DNA from: Desulfuribacillus stibiiarsenatis
Lineage (GTDB): Bacteria > Bacillota > Bacilli > Desulfuribacillales > Desulfuribacillaceae
Length of the DNA: 64,000 nucleotides
Reading direction: 5' to 3'
Assembly (NCBI RefSeq): GCF_001742305.1
Contig: NZ_MJAT01000040.1
Location: 1-64,000, forward strand
Below are positions 7,062 through 61,373 of the stretch, piece by piece; position 1 is the first letter of the stretch, and every line of letters starts with the position of its first letter. The notes under the pieces are model-generated. The model did not search any database. It saw only the letters and a program-made list of their open reading frames with translations, and had not been told where the DNA came from. The position numbers and the translations under genes are program-made.

Positions 7062-7093
7062 TTTAGAACTGGTTTAGAACTGTATGGTATAAT
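7062..7093 (+). promoter_or_regulatory. Promoter with 11-bp direct-repeat operator before sensor gene
   Basis: TTTAGAACTGG at 7062 and TTTAGAACTGT at 7073 are direct repeats exactly 11 bp apart. A perfect -10, TATAAT, lies at 7088-7093, 15 bases after the start of the second repeat, and there is no good -35. The layout (direct repeats one helical turn apart that replace the -35) is the binding mode known for SARP/OmpR-type activators. Four copies with the same phase and distance lie before the gene at 11549. They are probable sites for the regulator at 10187. Confidence 0.75.
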
Positions 7094-7124
7094 GTATTCT
7101 AATTGCCATAAGGAAGGAGACAAA

Positions 7125-10100
7125 ATGAATAATAAAATTATTAGGATTGCATCCCTCATTTTCATTATGTGCGGTATCTCTTTTTTGATTGTGACATCCT
7201 ATATAGATTTAAGCAATTCAAAAGCGCCAGAACATTTTGTCTCCGCGGGTTTAATTGATTTGTCTAAAATTGAGGACTTTAATCACCTTGTAAAATTAGA
7301 TGGGGAATGGAAATTTTATGAGAATGAATTAATTCATGACGCTCAATCCATCGAGGAATCGAAAAAAATATTCGTTACAGTACCAGGGAAATGGAATCGA
7401 TATGAGACTGGAAGAAAAGAACCCAAGTCCTTTGGCTACGGCACCTTTCACTTGAGGATTCAATTAAGTGAGACCCAAATTAATCAAATGGTTGGATTAA
7501 AGATACAAAATATAGGCATGTCGAACAAAGTCATTATTAATGATCAAGTGATTTCAATGAGCGGCAAGCCAGGTATTGATCGAAACAGCTATGAGATGGG
7601 CAATGTGCCGAAGTATGTGTTCTATTATCCGGAAAAAACTGAATTAGATGTTTTGATACAAGTAACAAATTTTGACTACAGTCCTTATAGTGGCATTGTC
7701 AGCTCAATCTTGTTTGGTCCTCAAGAGGTCCTAGAGAATACCAGAATAACAGCTTATGGATATGAGTTGGTTTTTTTGGGAGCAAGTTTAGCGGTTGGTT
7801 TTGTGTTCTTTATGGTCTTCTTATTTCGTATCAAGAGAACCTATTTGCTGTATTTTTCAATGTATATTATATCCAGCGGCTTATATGTCTTAACCCATGG
7901 CGAAAAAATATGGTTTCATCTTTTTCCAACTTTTGACTATCTTATATTTGCAAAAATTCAGTATTTTTCAGCAGCTCTAGCTATTAGCTTTTTTATAGGG
8001 TATTTATACACTTCATTTCCTGAAGTTTTTAAGAACAGAATGACAAAAGCTTTATTACTCGTTTCTTTTGCCTTTTATCCTGCGGTGTTATTCCCTTTAA
8101 GTATTCAGTCGAATATTTCGAGTATTCAAATCGCATTTTACATAGCAGTCATGTTGTATTCGGTGTATGGGAGTGTTAAAAGCATACTACATGAACATAC
8201 CTATTCTGTCTATTTTGTCGGGATTATTCTTTCGACAGCATTCATGGGCAGAGAAGGCATCTATTTGGTTCTGGGAAAAGGAAAAGTCGGGCTGTGGATG
8301 CTTCTTGCTCAATTTACTTGGATCTTAATCCACGCGTCTTTAATTGCGGGGAGGTTGAGCAAGACCTTTGATCTGGTGGAGGAACAATCCAAGGAACTCA
8401 TACGAATGGATCAATTGAAAGACGAATTTTTAGCGAAGTTGTCCTACGCATTAAGAGCACCACTGATGGGTATTTCCAATGTGACAAAACTTTATATAGA
8501 GCAAGAGGAAGACACACTATCCTATTCCCGAGGTGTAAAACTCTCTCAAATCCAAGACTTTTCAAGAAGATTAACGCGGCTTGTCAACGATATGACGGAT
8601 ATCTCCAAAATAAAAGAAGGCAAACTCACTTTGGAGTTGAGCGTCATCCAAATGAATAGATTTTTACGTAAAGTAGCAACATCCATGGCAGTTGCTTATA
8701 AAGATGACGGTGCAAGAATCGTCTTTGATATTGAGGACAGCATCCCCATGATAAGAGCGGATCAAGATCGCATGAAGCAGATTATTTTTTGTCTAATGGA
8801 TCATGCTGTGCTCAACAGTAAAAATAATCCTATCACATTAAGTGGACGCGGAAACACTGAGAGCGTTGAAATATCTGTAAGATATCCAGAGGAAAGTTCT
8901 CAAAGCAATAAGCATAACGAGCTGTTTGAGCCATTTTCTCAACAGAATGACTTGGGTATGGAGTCGGGGCTGGGGTTATCTATTGCCAAGCAACTTACAG
9001 AACTGATGGGCGGAATAATTGAAGTTAAGCACATTGAAAGTGGAGAAATCAGCATCACTGTCATTTTCCCTGCTTATAAAAGTAGGGTAGAAGTGGATGA
9101 AATAGCGGTTACTGAGATACAGTCATCCCAGGGAGAGACTTTTAACGATATTGAGGAACAGACACTCGCTACACCATATAGCATTAAAACAGCGGGCCAA
9201 AGTACGGTGATCGTAGCCGATGAAAGTCCTACAAACCTTAAGTTGATTGTTGACATGTTAGTGCATCACAATTATTCGGTGATTGCCGTCGATAATGGGC
9301 ACGATGTCATGAAGCAACTACAGCTTAATCCCAGCACGGATTTGGTCGTTATTGATTATTGGATGCAAGATCCTTCGGGGTTAGAAATTTGTCGCAAATT
9401 AAGAGAAGTCTATAGTCGTGATGACCTACCCATACTGATGCTTACGACAACAATCGATCCAAGTGTTGTGGAAAGGGCGTTACTCTCTGGGGCAAATGAT
9501 TTTCTCTATAAGCCCTATCAAGCGAATGAGTTAATTGCTAGAGTGCATTCCCTTGTTCAAGTGAAAAAAACATTGGCCCTGACGACGAGCTATGAGCTGG
9601 CGTTTCTTCACGCTCAGATTAAACCACACTTTCTCTATAATGCTTTAAACACAATTGCTGAGTACTGCGAAACTGAGCCCCATGAGGCAGGAAGACTAAT
9701 CATTTCACTTTCGAAATATTTAAGGGGCACCCTTGATTTTGAGAATATCAGCAGCTTTGTGACGGTTGAAAAAGAGTTGTCACTGGTCAAAGCATATCTC
9801 AATATAGAAATGGCACGCTTTGATAAGCTTGAAGTGGCATTTGATGTGGATGACAACATCACTGTTTCTTTACCCTCATTAACCTTACAAACCCTAGTTG
9901 AAAATGCAGTGAAGCACGGAGTGACGAAAATAGTAGCAGGAGGTAAGGTCACCATATCCATTAAGCAGTTAGATGACGGTGTGATTTTTACCGTTGAGGA
10001 TAATGGTGTGGGCATGGATTTAGAGAAACTGGACATATCCAATAAGACATCAGAGAAACGAAACAGTATTGGCTTATATAATATTAACACGAGACTACTC

Positions 10101-10190
10101 AAGATTTACGGAAAAGAGTTAATCATCGAGAGTACACCGGGATTAGGGACCAAAGCAAGTTTTGTCATACCCAATGGAGGTAGTCTATGA
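7125..10190 (+). CDS. 7TM hybrid sensor with degenerate HisKA, REC and LytS-type kinase
   Basis: A 1021-residue membrane sensor. ATG 7125 follows AGGAAGGAGA; the frame's earlier ATG at 7092 overlaps the -10 box. Order: one N-terminal helix; extracellular 7TMR-DISMED2-like beta domain (about 35-210); seven-helix 7TMR-DISM region (about 215-410); HisKA/HATPase-like region (about 425-655); receiver domain (about 690-815) with Asp744; LytS-type His_kinase (PF06580) plus HATPase (about 820-1015) with phosphoacceptor His835 in QIKPHFLYNALN, an intact N box (LVENAVKHG) and DNGVGM. In the first kinase module the HisKA His is Tyr441 (KLSYALRAPL) and the N box is eroded (CLMDHAVLNS), so only the C-terminal module should be active. 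Stop overlaps the regulator start (ATGA). Confidence 0.88.
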   Translation: MNNKIIRIASLIFIMCGISFLIVTSYIDLSNSKAPEHFVSAGLIDLSKIEDFNHLVKLDGEWKFYENELIHDAQSIEESKKIFVTVPGKWNRYETGRKEPKSFGYGTFHLRIQLSETQINQMVGLKIQNIGMSNKVIINDQVISMSGKPGIDRNSYEMGNVPKYVFYYPEKTELDVLIQVTNFDYSPYSGIVSSILFGPQEVLENTRITAYGYELVFLGASLAVGFVFFMVFLFRIKRTYLLYFSMYIISSGLYVLTHGEKIWFHLFPTFDYLIFAKIQYFSAALAISFFIGYLYTSFPEVFKNRMTKALLLVSFAFYPAVLFPLSIQSNISSIQIAFYIAVMLYSVYGSVKSILHEHTYSVYFVGIILSTAFMGREGIYLVLGKGKVGLWMLLAQFTWILIHASLIAGRLSKTFDLVEEQSKELIRMDQLKDEFLAKLSYALRAPLMGISNVTKLYIEQEEDTLSYSRGVKLSQIQDFSRRLTRLVNDMTDISKIKEGKLTLELSVIQMNRFLRKVATSMAVAYKDDGARIVFDIEDSIPMIRADQDRMKQIIFCLMDHAVLNSKNNPITLSGRGNTESVEISVRYPEESSQSNKHNELFEPFSQQNDLGMESGLGLSIAKQLTELMGGIIEVKHIESGEISITVIFPAYKSRVEVDEIAVTEIQSSQGETFNDIEEQTLATPYSIKTAGQSTVIVADESPTNLKLIVDMLVHHNYSVIAVDNGHDVMKQLQLNPSTDLVVIDYWMQDPSGLEICRKLREVYSRDDLPILMLTTTIDPSVVERALLSGANDFLYKPYQANELIARVHSLVQVKKTLALTTSYELAFLHAQIKPHFLYNALNTIAEYCETEPHEAGRLIISLSKYLRGTLDFENISSFVTVEKELSLVKAYLNIEMARFDKLEVAFDVDDNITVSLPSLTLQTLVENAVKHGVTKIVAGGKVTISIKQLDDGVIFTVEDNGVGMDLEKLDISNKTSEKRNSIGLYNINTRLLKIYGKELIIESTPGLGTKASFVIPNGGSL

Positions 10191-11323
10191 AGACAGTAGA
10201 TAAAGTAGATCACTATAGAATAGTTGTGATGGATGATGAAAGGAAAGCCTTAGAACGCTTTAAACGCCTCATAGCAGAGGAGGAAAATCTCACACTAGTG
10301 GCAAGTTTTACAAACCCCCATGAGGCAATCCACTATATTGAAAATCACAACGTGGATGTTGTCTTTGCTGATATAGAAATGCCTGAAATCAGTGGGACAG
10401 AAGTTGCAGATCTCATCGCAGCAATCAATCCGAGTATTGACGTGGTCTTTGTAACGGCTTACAGTCAATATGCACTACAAGCTTTTCAAGTCCATGCGGT
10501 AGGGTATTTACTGAAACCCATAGAGGTTGAAGACATCAGAAAGCAGATGAACCAGATTATTAAAAGAAGAGAAATGCGAAGGATTGGTCCTAAAAATGAA
10601 AAATGTATTATTCAATGTCTGGGACAGTTTCTTTGTTATCGCAACGACCAAGAATTTGTCAAGTGGCGAACAGCTAAAGCGGAAGAACTTTTAGGATTTT
10701 TGCTCCATTATCGGGGGAAGCCAGTATCAAAAGAAAAAATTATAGATACACTCTGGCCAGATATGGAACCTAAAAAAGCCTCACAAAACCTACATTCAAA
10801 TCTTCATTTTGTTCGTGAAGTGATGAAAAGTATTGGATTAGAAAACGTTATAGAAAGAAATAGAGAGAATTATCGGTTGAATACGGATTATATCGATTGT
10901 GACATGCTTCACTTTATGGCGCTAATTGAGGAAATCTCAAGGGTGGATCATCATGTAGACATTAATACACTGGAGAAGGCGGATACATTTTATCGTGGCA
11001 CATATTTTGAAGATAAAACCTATAAGTGGGCAGAGAGTCTAAGTCATTGGCTTCAAAACCAATTTGTTAGCATGAAGTTAAAGCAAGGGGCTTTCTATAA
11101 AAAAAGCGGTGTGAATGCCAAGGCGATCAGCGCTTATAAGACGATCATTCATCTGAGTCCAATCGAAGAGGACGCCTATATAGAACTTGCGGAAATATAT
11201 TTGGAGCAAGGAGATAGGGCATCGGCTTTACAATGTTATAAGAACTGTGTAAAGGTTCTAGAAGAAGAGCTAGATGTAAAACCATCTGCGCGATTTAAAG
11301 CTTTAATGTCAAAAGTAAAGTGA
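10187..11323 (+). CDS. Response regulator with winged helix and BTAD-like domain (SARP-like)
   Basis: A 378-residue protein. A receiver domain occupies about 1-130 with phosphoacceptor Asp62 (VVFADIEMPEISG), Thr/Ala and Lys (TAY, LLKPI) at the usual places. An OmpR-type winged helix follows (about 145-240; AKAEELLGFLLHYRGKPVSK, ASQNLHSNLHFVREVM). A helical, TPR-like bacterial transcriptional activation domain (about 250-375; LEKADTFYRGTYFED, AYIELAEIYLEQGDRASALQ) completes a SARP-like layout. SARPs bind direct repeats spaced by one helical turn; such repeats lie before the sensor gene and before the SLH gene. The start overlaps the sensor stop by four bases, so the pair is translationally coupled. 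Confidence 0.88.
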   Translation: MKTVDKVDHYRIVVMDDERKALERFKRLIAEEENLTLVASFTNPHEAIHYIENHNVDVVFADIEMPEISGTEVADLIAAINPSIDVVFVTAYSQYALQAFQVHAVGYLLKPIEVEDIRKQMNQIIKRREMRRIGPKNEKCIIQCLGQFLCYRNDQEFVKWRTAKAEELLGFLLHYRGKPVSKEKIIDTLWPDMEPKKASQNLHSNLHFVREVMKSIGLENVIERNRENYRLNTDYIDCDMLHFMALIEEISRVDHHVDINTLEKADTFYRGTYFEDKTYKWAESLSHWLQNQFVSMKLKQGAFYKKSGVNAKAISAYKTIIHLSPIEEDAYIELAEIYLEQGDRASALQCYKNCVKVLEEELDVKPSARFKALMSKVK

Positions 11324-11341
11324 ATAGAGGATATAGCTGAG

Positions 11342-11369
11342 GAAGTGCTTTAAGAGCGCTTCTTTTTTT
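11342..11369 (+). terminator. Terminator of the sensor/regulator operon
   Basis: GAAGTGCT pairs with AGCGCTTC (8 bp) around a 5-base loop, followed by seven T. It separates the regulatory operon from the SLH gene. Confidence 0.85.
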
Positions 11370-11385
11370 GATGCTTCGCTTCGTG

Positions 11386-11439
11386 TTTAGAAATGGTTTA
11401 GAAGTGATTTAGAAATGGTTTAGAGCACTGTGGTTAAAT
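11386..11439 (+). promoter_or_regulatory. Four 11-bp direct repeats and promoter before SLH gene
   Basis: TTTAGAAATGG (11386), TTTAGAAGTGA (11397), TTTAGAAATGG (11408) and TTTAGAGCACT (11419) are exactly 11 bp apart. A -10-like TTAAAT at 11434-11439 lies 15 bases after the start of the last repeat, the same distance as in the promoter at 7062-7093. The match in sequence and geometry indicates one activator, most likely the adjacent SARP-like regulator, for both promoters. Confidence 0.75.
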
Positions 11440-11548: not shown

Positions 11549-14500
11549 ATGTCTAAAAAGATTAAGAAAATAATTTCAGTGATGCTGGTTTTGTTATTGG
11601 TGTTTGGGATGGTTCCAGGTTCAATGACGGGTAGTGGGGTTGTTTATGCGTCAGCTCCAGAAACTATAACCGTTACAGGTGCTGGCTGGGGAGCAGCTAA
11701 TGGAACTTATACCATTGAAGGTACGTATGGAGGTAAGCCAATATATAGAAATGATACTATTGAGATAAGATGGGATTCAACAATGGGTGACGTTTGGGCT
11801 ATTAAGTTCACTAGCGGTTTAGTTTTATATTTTGCTCAAGAGGATGTTGCCAGTCCAGATTTGGTTGTAGCGTGGAGTACCCATGATCCTTTTTTTGCAC
11901 CTGTACCTACAACTGGACCTGCTACTTCGTCAGATGCGACGGTGTCAGTTATCAATCCAATGACTTATATTGTAAATAACGACACAAATACAATTTCTAA
12001 TAATATTACACAGATTACTACAAATGTTCCAGTCAGTTCGTTCCTCTCCTATTTGCAGAAACATCCTGCAGCAGACTGGAAGGTGGTTACAACAGGGACA
12101 ACGATCACAAATGCTGCAACGTTCGACAGTGCAACCGGAAAAGCTGTTGACACTTATTTGGCAGTTGGTGATAAGCTAGCAGTTAAAGCAGAAGACGGTA
12201 CGGTGAAGGTGTACGACATAACAGTGATTGAAGAAGGTGCTTCTTCTGATACAGATCTCGTAAGCGATAGCAGCAGTGTTACAATCGACATAAATGCTGG
12301 TACAATTACTGTATTGCGGTTACATGAAGATTATGAGATGCAAGATTTATACTTTGGAATTGAATGGCCTGAAGATTCGAGTTTTAAGTTCACTGCAGCG
12401 GGTATTGCTGATGATGCTGTTTTCTCTGGGATTGTTGGGAAAGATTGGCAAGATCAGATTGTAACAGGTGATAAGGTATTCGTGCAAGCGCAAAACGGTA
12501 CAGTGAAGGTATACACAATCACTTTAGCGTTCACACGTATTGCATCTAAAGAAGATGCAAATGATGACTATTTTTATAATGTTAATATACGCAATGGAAC
12601 GATTACTGAGGATGCCTCAGAGATTACTACTGCTGTGACAGTATCTGCATTCTTAGATAACCTAATAAAGCATGCTAATACAGTGTGGAAGGTTGTTGCA
12701 ACTGGTACAACGATCACAGACGCTGCTACGTTTGACGGTGCATCAGAAAAAGCTAGTGGAGCTACTTTAGCAGTTGGCGATTTGTTAGCTGTTAAAGATG
12801 CAGCTGGTGCGGTGAAGGTGTATGCGATTACGGTAACGGATGCTAGCTCCAGCAATACACCTGAACAATACTTTATCTTCGATCCTGACACTGGAACGAT
12901 TACAGGTTACAGTAGTGAGGGTCCTAAGGATGTAGTAATACCAAGCACCATAGACGGTGTGGCTGTTGTGAGTATAGGCGACTGGGCCTTCGGGATGCAG
13001 ACGTTAACAACGGTGACGATTCCTGCAAGTGTGATGAGTATAGGTGTAAGTGCCTTCTTTTCTAGCTCGTTGACATCTGTAACGATTCCGGAAGGTGTGA
13101 CGAGTATAGGTGACTTTGCCTTCGAAAGTAACCAGTTGACAACGGTGACGATTCCTGCAAGTGTGACGAGTATAGGTGAAGGTACCTTCAAAGATAACCC
13201 GTTGACCGAAGTAACCATTGGAAGTGGAGTTGTTATAACTCACGATGACTCAATGGGAACTCATGGCGCGTCATTCAAAAGAGATTATGAAGCAAACGGC
13301 AGTCTAGCTGGGACGTACACCTATGACTCTGGAACAGCTAGTTGGATTTTTTCTTCAGGAACGATGTCAAGCGATGCTGAAGTATCCATTATCGACAGCA
13401 ATAACTCTTATGTAGTCGATAATTCGGAAAATACGATTGTGGCGGACCAGACACCGATTACAACTGATATGAAAGTCGGTGCTTTTCTTGCTAATTTAGA
13501 GAAGCATGCTGCCGCAAGCTGGAAGGTCGTTACAACGGCTACGACAATCACAAATGCTGAAACGTTTGACAGTGCAACAGAAAAAGCTGGTGGCGATAAC
13601 TTAGCAGTAGGCGATTTGTTAGCAGTCAAAGCGGAAGACGGTACGGTGAAGGTGTATGCGATTACGGTAACGGGAGATTCGTCCGGAGAGCCACAGCCAC
13701 TCCAGCCTGAAGGAACGGGTACAGAGCAGGATCCATATCTAGTTGCTACAATTGAGAATTTGATCTGGTTACAAGAGCAGAGCCAAACAAACAATTTCTC
13801 AGGAAAGCATTTTAGACAAACAGCCGATATAGATCTATCTGTTATCGCAAATTGGGGTGGAATAGGTAAAGCTGATTTGGGTGTTTCCTTTCAGGGCACT
13901 TACGATGGTTATGGGTATACAATCAATAACATGACGATTACCAGAGATGATGCTACAATTGGTTTTTTTAATGCAATTAACAACAGTACAATAAAAAGAC
14001 TAGCGATTACAAACGCAAATGTGACTAGGACTCATAACACATCGAGTGAAGCCGTGAGTATTTTAGTTGGATATGCAAATGCAACAGTAGTTATTCAGGA
14101 TTGCTATACAACGGGAACTGTTATAGATGAACAAGCAACTAATAACTATACAGGAAGTGCTGCAGGAATTGTAGCGGAGGTAAACGGTGCTGGTACAATA
14201 ATTAGAAGCTATTCACTTGCATCAATTTCTAGAACTGCAGCAGTAGGTAGTTTCACAGGGGGGTTAAGTGGTCGGATCTCAGCAAATTCTGAAATAACGG
14301 ACTCTTTCTTTGCAGGAACTATCACTGGGAGTAATTGGTTCAGAGGTTATATTGTAGGTGCTAGCATGGCCACTGTCGATAAATTCACTAATACTTTCGC
14401 AGCAGCTTCAAGCACTGATCGAATGATTGGCGTTTTGCTTACCGATTATAGTAATGTTCAACTGGACGGAAATGCGAAAGATGCATCGTTTTTCAAAGAT

Positions 14501-17500
14501 GTTAATAATTACGGAGCGTCAACATATTCAACGGCATGGGATTTCGTGAATACATGGCAAATTGATCCTGCTGTTAACAATGGGTATCCAACTTTGCGGT
14601 CTCAAGGAACATCGGGTGAAGTACCTTCTGCTTCGTCAGATGCGACAGTATCAACCATCGGCAGCAACTATACTTATGTTGTAATCAATACACCAGCTAC
14701 GATTGAAGCAGACATGACACCGATTACAACGGATATGAAAGTCGGTGCATTTCTTGCTAATTTAGAGAAGCATGCTGAAGCCGCTTGGAAGGTTGTTACA
14801 GCTGGCACGACAATCACAGATGCTGCAGAGTTTGACAGTGCGACAGAAAAAGCTAGTGGCGATAACTTAGCAGTTGGTGATTTGTTAGCTGTTAAAGCAG
14901 AAAATGGTACGGTGAAGGTGTATGCGATTACGGTAACACCGAATGATAATTCAGGAGACTTTATATTTGATATTCCTACCCAAACCATAACTGGGTACAC
15001 TGGAAGCAATCCGAATGTTGTAATACCAGCAAGCATAGGCGGTGTTCAGGTAGTTGGTATAGGTGCATCTGCTTTTAGAAATATGACTTTGTCATCTATT
15101 ATCATCCCTGAAGGGGTTACAAGTATAGGTGCCCATGCTTTTAGAAATAGCACATTGACTTCGGTGAGTATACCTGAAAGTATATTAAACATCGGGACAT
15201 ATGCTTTTGCAGACAACCTATTGACAAGTTTGACCATCCTTACAGGTGGAATAACTATGGCAGACGGTGTTTTCTTTAACAACAAACTGGATACGTTGAA
15301 CTTACCAGAAACAATGACAAGCATAGCTGATGGAATGTTTACTCAAAATCTTTTGACCTCTGTAGTGATACCTGGATCGGTAACACATATAGGGCAAGCC
15401 TTTAACGCAAATGCTTTGACGAGGGTATCTATAGGAAATAATGTAACCATTGTTGCAAATGTTAACGCAATGGGCATTCATAGTATGACGTTTATAAGGG
15501 ATTATACTGCTAACTCAAGTGCGGCAGGAACATACATTTATGACTCTGGATCAGATAGTTGGAGCATAGAAGTGCTAAAAACCTACGAAGAATTATTGGC
15601 GTTGATTGCGGAGTCTAAACAGAGACGTACTGAGACTGAAGAATCGGAAGATGGGGAATATGTTACTCCTGGAGCCTATTGGGCTACATCTGAGGTTTGG
15701 AATGCATTCAGTGACACGATTGATGAAATTGACAATAATAAGTGGTCGGGTAAAGCTGCTGAGGTTATTCATAATGAGTATTTATCATTAGACGCAGCTC
15801 GAACCTTATTCATGGAAGCTAGACAATATTTGATAGACAAATTTGACTTAGACATAGCTATTGAAGATGCGGAAACTAAAAAAATGGGAGTAGTCATTTC
15901 AGAAACAGGCGAAGGGATATTTGTAGGGACATACTGGGTTACGCAGGCGATGCAGGACACTTTTTCAGCTGCTATTGATTCAGCAAAAGGCGTTTACAAC
16001 GATGCTGATGCTACTCAGGAAGAAGTAACAACGGCAATAGCCGCGCTCGTAGCTGCTACAAATAGCTACACACCTGTACAAGGAACAAATGTAGCTTCTT
16101 CTGATACAGATCTCGTAAGTGAGCGAGACTATATTACAGTCGATATAGATGCTGCTACAATCACTGCAGTACTTTTGTGGGACGAATTCATAAAGATGGA
16201 TCTAGACCTTGCAATTGTTTATCCTGATGATTCGAGTTACAAGATTGCTGGTGCAGAGGTTGCTAATGATGCAGAATTTTCTGGGATTGTTGGAAAAACA
16301 TCATTCTCAGCCGATCTTATAACGGGTGACAAGGTATTCGTACAAGCGCAAGACGGTACAGTGAAGGTATACACAATCACTTTAGCGTTGACACGTATTG
16401 CATCTAAAGACGATGAAAATGATGACTATTTTTATAATGTCAATATAGGTGCTGGAACAATTACGGATGATGCGTCAGAGATTACAACGGCTGTGACGGT
16501 ATCTGAATTCTTGGCCAATTTAAGAAAGAATGAGGATGCAAACTGGAAGGTCGTAGCAATGGGAACGACCATAACAGACGCTGCAACATTCATTAGTGCA
16601 ACAGGGAAAGCTGATGACGCTACTTTAGCAGTTGGTGATTTGTTAGCAGTTAAAGATGCAGACGGTAGGGTGAAGGTGTATACGATTACTGTAACACCGA
16701 ATGATGATTCAGGTTACTTTACATTTAATGCAGAGACAGGAACTATCACAGGCTATTCAAATGATGGTCCGAAGGATGTAGTAATACCATCTACTATTAA
16801 TGGTGTGTCTGTAACGAGCATAGGTAGTGCTGCATTCCTAATGATGAGTGTAACAAGCGTCACTATTCCAGACAGTGTAACTTCAATAGGGGCTAATGCA
16901 TTCGCATTGAACTCTATAACAAGTGTCACTATTCCAGACAGTGTAACTTTAATAGATGCTAGTGCATTCTTTTCAAACTCAATAACGAGTATCACAATCG
17001 GTGCTAATGTAACTGTTTTTGATAACATTTCATTAGGATTAAACGGAGCGTCATTCAAGACTTTATATGATTCAAATAAACTAGCAGGAACATACACATA
17101 CGTAGATGGTGCTTGGATAGGTCCTTCGGAAGGAGATGATTCAGATAACATGCTTTCCGACGACGCAACACTATCAGATCTCGCTATCAGCGTAGGTACG
17201 TTAAGTCCAGAATTTTCAAAACCAGAAAGAACGTTTACAGTCAGTGTTGCAAACGGAGTCACCAGCATGACTGTTACACCAACTGTTAATGACGAAGAGA
17301 ATGGCACAGTAACGGTAAATGGTGTGACTGCTACCACTGGACAACCTTCAAATGCCATCACTCTGAATGTAGGTAGCAATCCTATAACTATTATAGTGAC
17401 AGCAGAAGATGGCGTAACTACAGAAACCTACACCATCACAGTGACAAGAGCAGCAGGAAGTAATAATTCAGGAGAAAGTTCTAGTGGCGATGGCGATTCA

Positions 17501-18982
17501 GGCGGTGGAGGTGGCGATACACCAGCACCAGCACCAACACCTGCACCAACGCCAACACCAACACCAACGCCAACACCAGTGCCAGCACCAGTCGCAGCGA
17601 ATCAAATAGCACAATCTGTTGAAAAAGAAACAACAACAGGCAAAGAAACAACCATCACCACCACAGACGGCAAAAACATCGCCGTAGTACAAATAACAAA
17701 CGACAAAATGACAGATAAAATAACCCAACTAATAAATCAACGCCCAGTACCGCCTACGACACCAGCCGAGCAACCAGCACAGCCCGTAACACAATTGACT
17801 CGCAGTGAACAACGCACACAAAACGACCAGAACACGATCCAGATAGTAGTAGAAACACAGAACACAGACACAGTCAGTGCCCAACTCACAGGTGATATCG
17901 TTAAAAATATGGAAACGGGTGGAATCACACTATCAGTTAAAACTAACAACATAGACTACATCATCCCAGCAAAAGAAATAGCGATCGAACGAGTAGCCCA
18001 GAACTTAGGCATCGCAGCAGCTAACCTAGCATCAATCGTAGTCGAAGTCAAAATAGACAAAGCAACAACAGAAAAATCAGAGCAAATGCAACAAAGAGCT
18101 AGCGAGCGCAATGCAGAAATCGTTGTAGCGCCAATAAGCTTCCAAGTAATCGCACACACAACAACGAGCTCAGGCGAAACAAGTAGTCAGATAATATCTA
18201 ACTTCTCACAATACGTAGAACGCGTCATGGAACTACCTGAAGGTATGGACCCTAGTAAAATAACAACAGGCATAATCTATGATGACAAGGGTACATTCGA
18301 CCACGTGCCGACAGAAGTATTCCAAGCAGGCGGTAAATGGTTCGCTAGATTGAACTCGCTCACTAACTCAGACTACACCATAATCTACAACCCAATCACA
18401 GTTAAGTCAGTAGAAGGTCACTGGTCAAAAGACATTGTCAACGATATGGCGTCACGCATAGTCATAGCAGAGCACCAAACATTCACACCTGACACGGCCA
18501 TTACCAGAGGAGAATTCGCCGACTACATCGTCAGAGCACTAGGCCTATATCGCGTAGGAAACTATGACAGACAACGCTTCACAGATGTAACGAGAAGTCA
18601 CAAACAAGCCGATTCTATAACCATAGCTAACCAATACGGCATCATTAACGGCTATCCAGACGGAACATTCCGAGCAGAAGCAACCATTACTCGACAAGAA
18701 GCCATGACCATGTACGCTAGAGCAATGGACATCGTCAAGATAATCGAGCAAGAAATCAAACTAGAAGCCATCTATACCGATGTAGCAGACATAACCGGCT
18801 GGGCACACGCCTACGTCAAGAAAACAGTCAGTGCCGGCATATTTAAGGGTAGAACAGACACAACCATCAACCCATTAGAAACCTTTACCCGAGCCGAAGC
18901 AGCTACAGCGATCCGCAACATGCTAGTAAAGGCCGAGCTAATTAACGACAAGCTAGACTCCGTTGCAACCGTAACGAAATAA
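11549..18982 (+). CDS. Giant SLH-anchored repeat surface protein (2477 aa)
   Basis: ATG 11549 follows AGAGGTGGAG. Signal peptide 1-36. About five copies of a roughly 95-residue module (near 130-225, 341-431, 606-708, 1030-1131, 1628-1718), each ending like LAVGDLLAVKAEDGTVKVYA. A second module (TDLVSDSSSVTIDINAGTI) occurs near 235 and 1515. BspA-type leucine-rich repeats (SVTIPEGVTSIGDFAFESN) lie near 465-568, 1151-1311 and 1741-1834. A beta-helix-like part is at 715-1025, a FIVAR-like helical part at 1350-1510, and a cadherin-like Ig domain (LSPEFSKPERTFTVSV) at 1870-1970. A Ser/Gly and Pro-Thr linker (1971-2015) follows, a roughly 270-residue region, and three SLH domains (2289-2471) for wall-polymer binding. 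Codon use changes near 17460, suggesting a mosaic gene. Probable adhesin or matrix protein; the ligand is unknown. Confidence 0.9.
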   Translation: MSKKIKKIISVMLVLLLVFGMVPGSMTGSGVVYASAPETITVTGAGWGAANGTYTIEGTYGGKPIYRNDTIEIRWDSTMGDVWAIKFTSGLVLYFAQEDVASPDLVVAWSTHDPFFAPVPTTGPATSSDATVSVINPMTYIVNNDTNTISNNITQITTNVPVSSFLSYLQKHPAADWKVVTTGTTITNAATFDSATGKAVDTYLAVGDKLAVKAEDGTVKVYDITVIEEGASSDTDLVSDSSSVTIDINAGTITVLRLHEDYEMQDLYFGIEWPEDSSFKFTAAGIADDAVFSGIVGKDWQDQIVTGDKVFVQAQNGTVKVYTITLAFTRIASKEDANDDYFYNVNIRNGTITEDASEITTAVTVSAFLDNLIKHANTVWKVVATGTTITDAATFDGASEKASGATLAVGDLLAVKDAAGAVKVYAITVTDASSSNTPEQYFIFDPDTGTITGYSSEGPKDVVIPSTIDGVAVVSIGDWAFGMQTLTTVTIPASVMSIGVSAFFSSSLTSVTIPEGVTSIGDFAFESNQLTTVTIPASVTSIGEGTFKDNPLTEVTIGSGVVITHDDSMGTHGASFKRDYEANGSLAGTYTYDSGTASWIFSSGTMSSDAEVSIIDSNNSYVVDNSENTIVADQTPITTDMKVGAFLANLEKHAAASWKVVTTATTITNAETFDSATEKAGGDNLAVGDLLAVKAEDGTVKVYAITVTGDSSGEPQPLQPEGTGTEQDPYLVATIENLIWLQEQSQTNNFSGKHFRQTADIDLSVIANWGGIGKADLGVSFQGTYDGYGYTINNMTITRDDATIGFFNAINNSTIKRLAITNANVTRTHNTSSEAVSILVGYANATVVIQDCYTTGTVIDEQATNNYTGSAAGIVAEVNGAGTIIRSYSLASISRTAAVGSFTGGLSGRISANSEITDSFFAGTITGSNWFRGYIVGASMATVDKFTNTFAAASSTDRMIGVLLTDYSNVQLDGNAKDASFFKDVNNYGASTYSTAWDFVNTWQIDPAVNNGYPTLRSQGTSGEVPSASSDATVSTIGSNYTYVVINTPATIEADMTPITTDMKVGAFLANLEKHAEAAWKVVTAGTTITDAAEFDSATEKASGDNLAVGDLLAVKAENGTVKVYAITVTPNDNSGDFIFDIPTQTITGYTGSNPNVVIPASIGGVQVVGIGASAFRNMTLSSIIIPEGVTSIGAHAFRNSTLTSVSIPESILNIGTYAFADNLLTSLTILTGGITMADGVFFNNKLDTLNLPETMTSIADGMFTQNLLTSVVIPGSVTHIGQAFNANALTRVSIGNNVTIVANVNAMGIHSMTFIRDYTANSSAAGTYIYDSGSDSWSIEVLKTYEELLALIAESKQRRTETEESEDGEYVTPGAYWATSEVWNAFSDTIDEIDNNKWSGKAAEVIHNEYLSLDAARTLFMEARQYLIDKFDLDIAIEDAETKKMGVVISETGEGIFVGTYWVTQAMQDTFSAAIDSAKGVYNDADATQEEVTTAIAALVAATNSYTPVQGTNVASSDTDLVSERDYITVDIDAATITAVLLWDEFIKMDLDLAIVYPDDSSYKIAGAEVANDAEFSGIVGKTSFSADLITGDKVFVQAQDGTVKVYTITLALTRIASKDDENDDYFYNVNIGAGTITDDASEITTAVTVSEFLANLRKNEDANWKVVAMGTTITDAATFISATGKADDATLAVGDLLAVKDADGRVKVYTITVTPNDDSGYFTFNAETGTITGYSNDGPKDVVIPSTINGVSVTSIGSAAFLMMSVTSVTIPDSVTSIGANAFALNSITSVTIPDSVTLIDASAFFSNSITSITIGANVTVFDNISLGLNGASFKTLYDSNKLAGTYTYVDGAWIGPSEGDDSDNMLSDDATLSDLAISVGTLSPEFSKPERTFTVSVANGVTSMTVTPTVNDEENGTVTVNGVTATTGQPSNAITLNVGSNPITIIVTAEDGVTTETYTITVTRAAGSNNSGESSSGDGDSGGGGGDTPAPAPTPAPTPTPTPTPTPVPAPVAANQIAQSVEKETTTGKETTITTTDGKNIAVVQITNDKMTDKITQLINQRPVPPTTPAEQPAQPVTQLTRSEQRTQNDQNTIQIVVETQNTDTVSAQLTGDIVKNMETGGITLSVKTNNIDYIIPAKEIAIERVAQNLGIAAANLASIVVEVKIDKATTEKSEQMQQRASERNAEIVVAPISFQVIAHTTTSSGETSSQIISNFSQYVERVMELPEGMDPSKITTGIIYDDKGTFDHVPTEVFQAGGKWFARLNSLTNSDYTIIYNPITVKSVEGHWSKDIVNDMASRIVIAEHQTFTPDTAITRGEFADYIVRALGLYRVGNYDRQRFTDVTRSHKQADSITIANQYGIINGYPDGTFRAEATITRQEAMTMYARAMDIVKIIEQEIKLEAIYTDVADITGWAHAYVKKTVSAGIFKGRTDTTINPLETFTRAEAATAIRNMLVKAELINDKLDSVATVTK

Positions 18983-19625: not shown

Positions 19626-19871
19626 ATTTAGAATTGTAGGAAGTTAATGTATGGGAGATAGTGTAGGATTTATATTGTATTTTCCCGAAACGAGGCTCAT
19701 CTAAAATGCTAATGAAGGAACATTATACGAACTCACTGGCGGGAAAGAATTGCTTATGTGAAATCAGCTAAAAGCCAGTTTAAATAATCTATTAGTTATC
19801 AGATAGTTATAAGAAGGAAAATGATGTTATAATAATTTCATATAGTAGTATCGTATATTGGGGGAGATTAA

Positions 19872-59668: not shown

Positions 59669-61171
59669 CTAACTCACATCCCCTATTGGAATTATAATTG
59701 TAATTTTTGTTCCTTCGTTGATTTTCGCATCGATATCAATGCTCCCTCGTAGAAGCGCAACACGTTCTTTTACGTTTTTCAGGCCTTGTTTATGTCCGTT
59801 GATGTTCATTTGATCTTGAAGCTCTGATAGAGAATATCCTATTCCATTGTCTTCAATTCGTAAACATAGTGTATTGTTACTAATTTGGATTTCTAACGAA
59901 ACTTGAGTAGCATTTGCGTGTTTGATTACATTTGTTAGTAATTCAAATATGACTAATTGAAATTCTTTCTGCTTTTCTACAGAAATATTGGTATATTCTA
60001 GTTCTTTATCATACTGGAATTGTAACATAATGTTTGAATACTCTTTAAAGTCATGAATCATTTCTAGAATACTACTAAGTAGATGACTCTGATTATATTC
60101 AGGATGCTCTCGTAGGTCGTTAATATATTGACGAATTTTTTTGATAACTCCATTGAGGCGATCAATTGCCACGTGTATGTGTTCTTTCGCTTTTTCTGGA
60201 TCTTTATCGATTTGAGAAGGGACGTTTTCAATATATAAACCTACGCCATAAACAGACTGAATAATTCCATCATGTAAGTCTCTAGAGAATCGATTCCGTT
60301 CTTCGTGAATGGCGTTAATGCGCTCAGCTGTTTCTACGCGGATATGCATTTCATGAGAGAATATTTTCAAAATCTGAACTGAGTAGTAGGCCATAAGAAC
60401 CCCACAAAGAGCGCGCATAATTTGTACTGGGATACCCGTTACCTCGAAAAAGCTCTTTACATTAATAATGTTAGAAGGGAAGAAGAAAGTCTCAGGTACC
60501 ACGACTCCTGCTACTATAGCATATAAGTAGAAAACAACGCCAAGTCGTTTAACTAATGGAATCGTTTTTTCTAACTGATTCTTTAATAGATCGGGTACCT
60601 GAAGGTATAACGCATAACCAGCTAGAATTGACCCAGGTAAGCATAATAAATATCGGGACCATGTATTACTTACAGTTCTCCACTCATTTACATCTGTAAA
60701 AAGAAAGAGCCTTGTAATAATGAAGAAGAACAACCATAAGCTAAACATAACATATGGAGCATAACGAATGATAAAGAAAACAGTACGAATTTTTATAGAA
60801 TTTGTAGAATCCATAGGGGTTATTTCTATGGATTTTTTCTTTGTTTCTACATATAGGGTGGAACCAAATAAAAATAGAAAAAAGTACGATAATGCTGTAA
60901 TAAAGACTTTAAAGGTAAATTGGTACATGACATGAAGAGTTTTCGCATCTGGATGATTTTCTAGCATCGGAATGAAGAAATGCCCCCACTCTACTAATCC
61001 ATGAACAATTCCAAACAAAGCTAAATATTTTAAACTTTTTGCAAGTGGGATGGTACTGAAGTTCTTAGCTTGCAAAGTAATGGCAAAACCCATCATGAAA
61101 AATGCCAACCCATAAATAAAGAGGACTTGCTGAAAGTATAGTGTAAAAAAATTAAATAACGTAACGACCAC
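59669..61171 (-). CDS. Membrane-bound HisKA_3 sensor histidine kinase
   Basis: A 500-residue kinase. The N-terminal half (about 1-285) has seven or eight predicted membrane helices, in place of a large extracellular domain, so it probably senses a signal within the membrane. The C-terminal half is a DesK/NarX-type HisKA_3 kinase: RFSRDLHDGIIQSVYGVGLY holds the phosphoacceptor His, followed by an HATPase with N box ELLTNVIKHANATQ and G1 DNGIGY. The GTG start at 61171 is uncertain; GAGGTGG overlaps it and might instead serve a downstream start. It is the first gene of the kinase–regulator–chrA operon. Confidence 0.88.
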   Translation of the reverse strand: MVVTLFNFFTLYFQQVLFIYGLAFFMMGFAITLQAKNFSTIPLAKSLKYLALFGIVHGLVEWGHFFIPMLENHPDAKTLHVMYQFTFKVFITALSYFFLFLFGSTLYVETKKKSIEITPMDSTNSIKIRTVFFIIRYAPYVMFSLWLFFFIITRLFLFTDVNEWRTVSNTWSRYLLCLPGSILAGYALYLQVPDLLKNQLEKTIPLVKRLGVVFYLYAIVAGVVVPETFFFPSNIINVKSFFEVTGIPVQIMRALCGVLMAYYSVQILKIFSHEMHIRVETAERINAIHEERNRFSRDLHDGIIQSVYGVGLYIENVPSQIDKDPEKAKEHIHVAIDRLNGVIKKIRQYINDLREHPEYNQSHLLSSILEMIHDFKEYSNIMLQFQYDKELEYTNISVEKQKEFQLVIFELLTNVIKHANATQVSLEIQISNNTLCLRIEDNGIGYSLSELQDQMNINGHKQGLKNVKERVALLRGSIDIDAKINEGTKITIIIPIGDVS

Positions 61172-61336: not shown

Positions 61337-61373
61337 TGACATATGACAATGTGACAGAATTGTGACATATGAG
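61337..61373 (+). promoter_or_regulatory. Repeat cluster in the kinase/cytochrome intergenic region
   Basis: TGACATATGA recurs at 61337 and 61363 (26 bp apart). TGTGACA occurs at 61350 and 61361 (11 bp apart). The cluster lies between the divergent sensor kinase gene (start 61171) and the cytochrome gene (start 61428). The direct 11-bp spacing would suit tandem NarL-type regulator dimers. No Fnr or Crp palindrome (TGTGA-N6-TCACA) is seen. Confidence 0.5.

Follow-up and report, generated by a model that had tools for sequence, protein, structure and literature searches.

We propose that a locus in the window (here, the whole 64-kb stretch of DNA analysed) is a two-component activation module of the SARP type, which would regulate its own operon and induce a giant SLH protein, and we put the probability of this reading at roughly 0.87. 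Autoregulation and direct control of the surface protein by the regulator had both been suggested by the sequence-only reading, and would work as follows. A signal would be received by the seven-transmembrane (7TM) sensor, whose C-terminal LytS-type kinase would phosphorylate the REC-SARP regulator. The active regulator would then bind the repeat arrays head-to-tail, one protomer per 11-bp unit, both upstream of the sensor-regulator operon and upstream of the SLH gene, which is transcribed separately (Table 1). There, given the 8 bp between the last unit and the -10 element, it would stand in for the missing -35 element and dock sigma region 4 as AfsR does, and the outcome would be positive autoregulation together with induction of the giant surface protein. 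The four-unit array of the SLH gene, as against two units before the sensor, may make the SLH promoter respond differently. Three alternatives, i.e., another OmpR-type regulator, repression, and a microsatellite, are weaker explanations than a SARP activation module and are weighed below.

Table 1. Positions of the features of the locus within the window.
Feature	Position	Strand	Sequence or product	Remarks
Operator repeat 1, sensor promoter	7062..7072	+	TTTAGAACTGG	predicted operator
Operator repeat 2, sensor promoter	7073..7083	+	TTTAGAACTGT	predicted operator
-10 element, sensor promoter	7088..7093	+	TATAAT	8 bp past last heptamer; without canonical -35 at 16-18 bp
Sensor gene	7125..10190	+	1021 aa	7TMR-DISM, HisKA + HATPase (degenerate: H441Y, N560H), REC, LytS-type His_kinase, HATPase
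Response regulator gene	10187..11323	+	378 aa	LytR/BtsR-like receiver + winged helix + BTAD (SARP)
Intrinsic terminator of sensor-regulator operon	11339..11369	+		12-bp stem, T-run; z -4.2
Operator repeat 1, SLH promoter	11386..11396	+	TTTAGAAATGG	predicted operator
Operator repeat 2, SLH promoter	11397..11407	+	TTTAGAAGTGA	predicted operator
Operator repeat 3, SLH promoter	11408..11418	+	TTTAGAAATGG	predicted operator
Operator repeat 4, SLH promoter	11419..11429	+	TTTAGAGCACT	predicted operator; degenerate heptamer TTTAGAG
-10 element, SLH promoter	11434..11439	+	TTAAAT	8 bp past last heptamer
SLH gene (predicted target)	11549..18982	+	2477 aa, secreted	BspA-type LRR_5 repeats, cadherin-like domain, C-terminal SLH domains

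Repeat arrays and promoters in the window

Read directly from the sequence, the TTTAGAA repeats recur with a period of exactly 11 bp, two units preceding the sensor gene and four, the last of them imperfect, preceding the giant SLH gene. At both promoters the last repeat begins 15 bases (the heptamer plus 8 bp) before the -10 element, which is weak in the case of the SLH gene. The period and this distance are as the sequence-only reading had described them, and the word that it had offered, TTTAGAAnTGG, held in part: the repeats are present, but the last G is absent at 7073 and 11397 and the unit at 11419 is degenerate, and for that reason the strict word TTTAGAANTGG occurs exactly at only three places. 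Since neither promoter has a -35 element at the usual distance, a generic sigma-70 scan reported neither of them. The arrays do overlap the -35 region, and a regulator seated there might instead occupy it and block RNA polymerase until a signal arrives, in keeping with the ability of OmpR-type proteins to repress. We consider such repression very unlikely, since the canonical -35 element is absent, leaving none to block, and the spacing agrees with SARP activation complexes.

The start codon of the regulator overlaps the stop codon of the sensor, which itself probably starts at 7125, after AGGAAGGAG, rather than at 7092. Since the terminator closes this operon ~16 bp before the SLH array, the SLH gene is very likely transcribed from its own promoter.

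The signal in the arrays is carried by spacing and not by the single 11-mer, which was not enriched (107 matches vs. 97 expected at up to two mismatches). The spaced pair TTTAGAA-N4-TTTAGAA, with at most one mismatch, was found four times in the window, where 0.20 would be expected, and none of 100 shuffles reached four. Across the whole 3.1-Mb genome, exact TTTAGAA pairs lie at the two window promoters and at one other place, and the full motif, i.e., the pair plus a -10 element at the right spacing with no mismatches, lies only at the two window promoters. The repeats are not, therefore, scattered at random through the genome. The third exact pair (G000:C34:61270; L091 9271), which precedes a 609-aa coiled-coil ORF, was considered as a target and set aside: it lacks a -10 element at the right offset, the crude expectation is 0.05 pairs genome-wide, and it is probably a chance occurrence, the alternative being a weak target. 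A wider TTTAGA regulon, allowing up to two mismatches, was likewise rejected, as it did not rise above the reversed-pattern control (63 vs. 83). Since exact TTTAGAA pairs in 60 relatives were scattered single matches, the word appears to be private to this genome.

Two other repeats were seen in the window. A pair of TAGTTAT heptamers 11 bp apart (19793-19810) lies before a GAF-HD gene (19872) with no -10 element at the right spacing, and is likely due to chance. A TGTGACA direct repeat of 11 bp (61350-61367), situated between a divergent HisKA_3 kinase gene (59669-61171, - strand) and a multihaem cytochrome gene (61428, + strand), may be the operator of another regulator.

Sensor and regulator compared with known systems

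The regulator scored above the cut-off for Response_reg (84.9 bits) and BTAD (61.5 bits) and slightly under it for Trans_reg_C (24.9 vs. a Pfam cut-off of 26.2). A profile built from 19 homologs aligned with EmbR and AfsR over residues ~150-372, the whole winged-helix/BTAD part, and the best PDB matches to an AlphaFold2 model of the protein (pLDDT 89) were 8k60, 2ff4, and 8hvr, i.e., AfsR initiation-complex chains and EmbR, with TM-scores to the target of up to 0.77. These results agree with the earlier assignment of an OmpR-type winged helix plus BTAD to this gene. The 19-homolog alignment was too diverse for a pattern scan, and a scan of named genomes found no close relative of the regulator (P0002). 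Its receiver is nearest to those of BtsR/LytR; residues D16, D17, D62, and K110 show full or near-full conservation across the family alignment, with the phospho-acceptor Asp and the Lys in place.

According to published work, the heptamer direct repeats of SARP promoters are spaced by 11 or 22 bp, 8 bp separate the 3' repeat from the -10 element, and AfsR docks sigma region 4 at these repeats (PMC10936776). Both window promoters match the published spacing to the base, which bears out the SARP-type repeat geometry put forward from the letters alone. With a winged helix followed by BTAD, a SARP fold, and 11-bp heptamer repeats of which the 3' one lies 8 bp from the -10 element, a SARP-type interpretation of the locus is well supported.

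The sensor's first kinase module is degenerate. It has Y441, C556, and H560 where 42, 49, and 48 of 51 aligned proteins have His, Asn, and Asn, respectively, and it therefore lacks the intact H-box His and N-box of a classical HisKA hybrid kinase, which most homologs keep; it is possible that it serves as a pseudokinase regulatory module. The LytS-type His_kinase (PF06580) plus HATPase module retains H835 and N927, both invariant in 51 of 51 homologs. Since the first module is without the catalytic His and N-box and the LytS-type His and Asn are invariant, the C-terminal kinase is likely to be the output of the sensor.

The regulator resembles AfsR at the afsS promoter of Streptomyces (PDB 8HVR, 8JKE, 8K60; PMC10936776) in its OmpR-type winged helix plus BTAD and in its fold, and the promoters resemble that of afsS in that the -35 element is replaced by direct repeats with a period of one helical turn, of which the 3' one lies 8 bp from the -10 element. 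However, whereas Streptomyces SARPs have NOD/TPR domains or are small and free-standing, the window regulator has a front receiver and a cognate 7TM kinase. The window system also differs from them in its Bacilli host, in its predicted targets, which are surface proteins rather than antibiotic clusters, and in having up to four units. Mycobacterium EmbR has an FHA domain and a Ser/Thr kinase where the window system has a receiver and a histidine kinase. The two are alike in that a winged helix plus BTAD regulator is under phosphorylation control (EmbR, PDB 2FF4/2FEZ). A LytS-type His_kinase output module is also found in BtsS/BtsR, of the LytS/LytTR type (PMC10653868), and the window receiver is most like that of BtsR. 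Unlike BtsS/BtsR, the output here is a SARP and not LytTR, and the 7TMR-DISM sensor bears an additional HisKA-HATPase-REC section, degenerate in this case. PhoP-type operators (Pho boxes) likewise consist of head-to-tail winged-helix units every 11 bp. PhoP, however, is without a BTAD domain, and Pho boxes are not known to be restricted to the 8-bp spacing from the -10 element.

Recurrence of the arrays in REC-SARP loci of Bacilli

We examined 88 REC-SARP loci, which collapse into 55 clusters at 60% identity, alongside 19 control regions drawn from the genomes that carry these loci. Distinct arrays were counted in intergenic DNA, as coding DNA confounds by codon periodicity and overlapping matches inflate the numbers. 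The 55 clusters held 47 distinct exact heptamer pairs at period 11 vs. 7-22 at other periods, and the control regions 8 at period 11 vs. 1-10 at other periods. An exact pair at period 11 lies upstream of 11 of the 21 SLH genes in these loci, with none at nine other periods and one at 22, and the excess at period 11 is smaller before sensor (4 of 26) and regulator (6 of 38) genes. Since an exact heptamer pair is missing before roughly half of the SLH genes in REC-SARP loci, and before most of the regulator and sensor genes there, autoregulation is not universal.

Units of the form TKGTnnAG were found at period 11 at 34 sites, compared with 2, 1, 5, and 0 at periods 9, 10, 12, and 13, and in 27 of the 34 (79%) the distance from the first base of the last unit to TAnnnT is exactly 18 nt. 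When TGGTTTAGAA of the window is aligned with TTGTTCAGAA, the distance to the -10 element is 18 at both window promoters, i.e., the same rule; in systems with other heptamers the geometry shifts by 1-2 nt. The idea that homologous loci would conserve the repeats was upheld as regards architecture, which is the same upstream of SLH and sensor genes, but not as regards the exact heptamer, which differs between systems.

The gene order SLH-sensor-regulator is kept in Paenibacillus polymyxa, P. pabuli, Lysinibacillus, and others. GTTCAG arrays precede both the SLH gene and the sensor at L242, L243, L245, and L251 (orthologs in Paenibacillus/Lysinibacillus) and one of the two in others; none were found at L247, L248, L249, and L252. 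A paralogous system in the same genome as the window (L063) has the layout regulator, sensor, array, SLH gene, the word of the array being a different one (TTTAAGA/TGTAAGA). At L082, L088, and L089, REC-SARP genes adjoin SLH genes with arrays of yet other words (CTTTCAT, TTGTCAT), and no adjacent large 7TM sensor was detected at these three loci.

Association with REC-SARP genes across genomes

The pattern TTGTTCAG-N3-TTGTTCAG was searched with one mismatch in 399 genomes, 113 REC-SARP-positive and 286 negative, with the reversed pattern as control. Positive genomes held 187 sites vs. 14 for the control, and negative genomes 46 vs. 22. In raw counts that ignore phylogeny, at least two sites occurred in 40 of the 113 positive and 3 of the 286 negative genomes; within a single genus (g13), positives had 2, 14, 6, and 3 sites and negatives 1, 0, and 0. 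TAnnnT lay at exactly 18 nt in 32 of 37 non-redundant sites (86%), which had been fetched regardless of promoters.

These counts bear on whether the arrays might be operators for a different response regulator of the OmpR/PhoP type, whose gene lies elsewhere, the REC-SARP gene being merely a neighbour. Many winged-helix regulators bind 11-bp direct repeats, the control regions without REC-SARP show a mild excess at period 11 (8 vs. a mean of ~4), and Streptomyces PhoP and AfsR have common sites (PMC10972967). We nevertheless judge another regulator unlikely, since TTGTTCAG-type arrays follow REC-SARP genes over the 399 genomes and inside one genus, both TTTAGAA arrays flank the operon while the full motif is found nowhere else in the genome, and the -10 spacing is that of SARPs.

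One genome (G349) owes nine TTGTTCAG sites to one tandem of ten perfect copies of TTGTTCAGGTG (C57:9684-9790), an apparent expansion of the operator unit, and a slippage-like, seven-fold 11-bp tandem of GGAAGTAAGAA, with the operator period, lies between the sensor and REC-SARP genes at L074 (8199-8276). Since such 11-bp tandems exist, the window repeats might likewise be a slippage-derived microsatellite with no regulatory role. However, the heptamer is kept while the bases between heptamers vary, the word is common to two separate promoters, and the distance to the -10 element is fixed in the window and at tens of independent sites, which makes a microsatellite extremely improbable.

Downstream of the genome-wide sites we scanned 20 proteins, which were picked mainly for large size and are thereby biased to surface proteins. 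Nine have SLH domains and six are other surface, Ig, collagen-binding, or dockerin proteins; the rest comprise one dual kinase of the window-sensor type, an MCP, a lectin-like protein, a deacetylase, and a tail-collar protein. G050 has 14 sites in all, of which ~6 lie before SLH genes; such genes make up ~1% of the genes of that genome.

Searches of an open-access library turned up no description of REC-SARP regulons in Firmicutes, and none of a combination, in Bacilli, of two-component input with surface-protein targets, a fixed operator grammar, and words that diverge. The mechanism proposed is itself the known SARP one, and its combination with two-component input and surface targets in Bacilli is apparently undescribed. 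We lean towards the broader view that SARP-type promoter takeover is a general two-component output in Bacilli governing SLH/adhesin-like surface proteins, each sensor-regulator pair having its private 11-bp word. If this is true, several insulated surface-protein switches could run in one genome, and an activation mechanism whose structure has been solved would extend beyond Streptomyces antibiotic regulation to surface proteins under signal control in Bacilli, Paenibacillus and Lysinibacillus among them. The operator grammar (unit, 11-bp period, and fixed -10 distance) would make the regulons of uncharacterised sensors predictable genome by genome, and paralogous regulator/operator pairs would offer natural sets for the study of how DNA-recognition specificity diverges. 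In two species, arrays also precede small proteins of the phage-tail-collar type (L176 992-1576 and L183 457-1074; G050 and G093).
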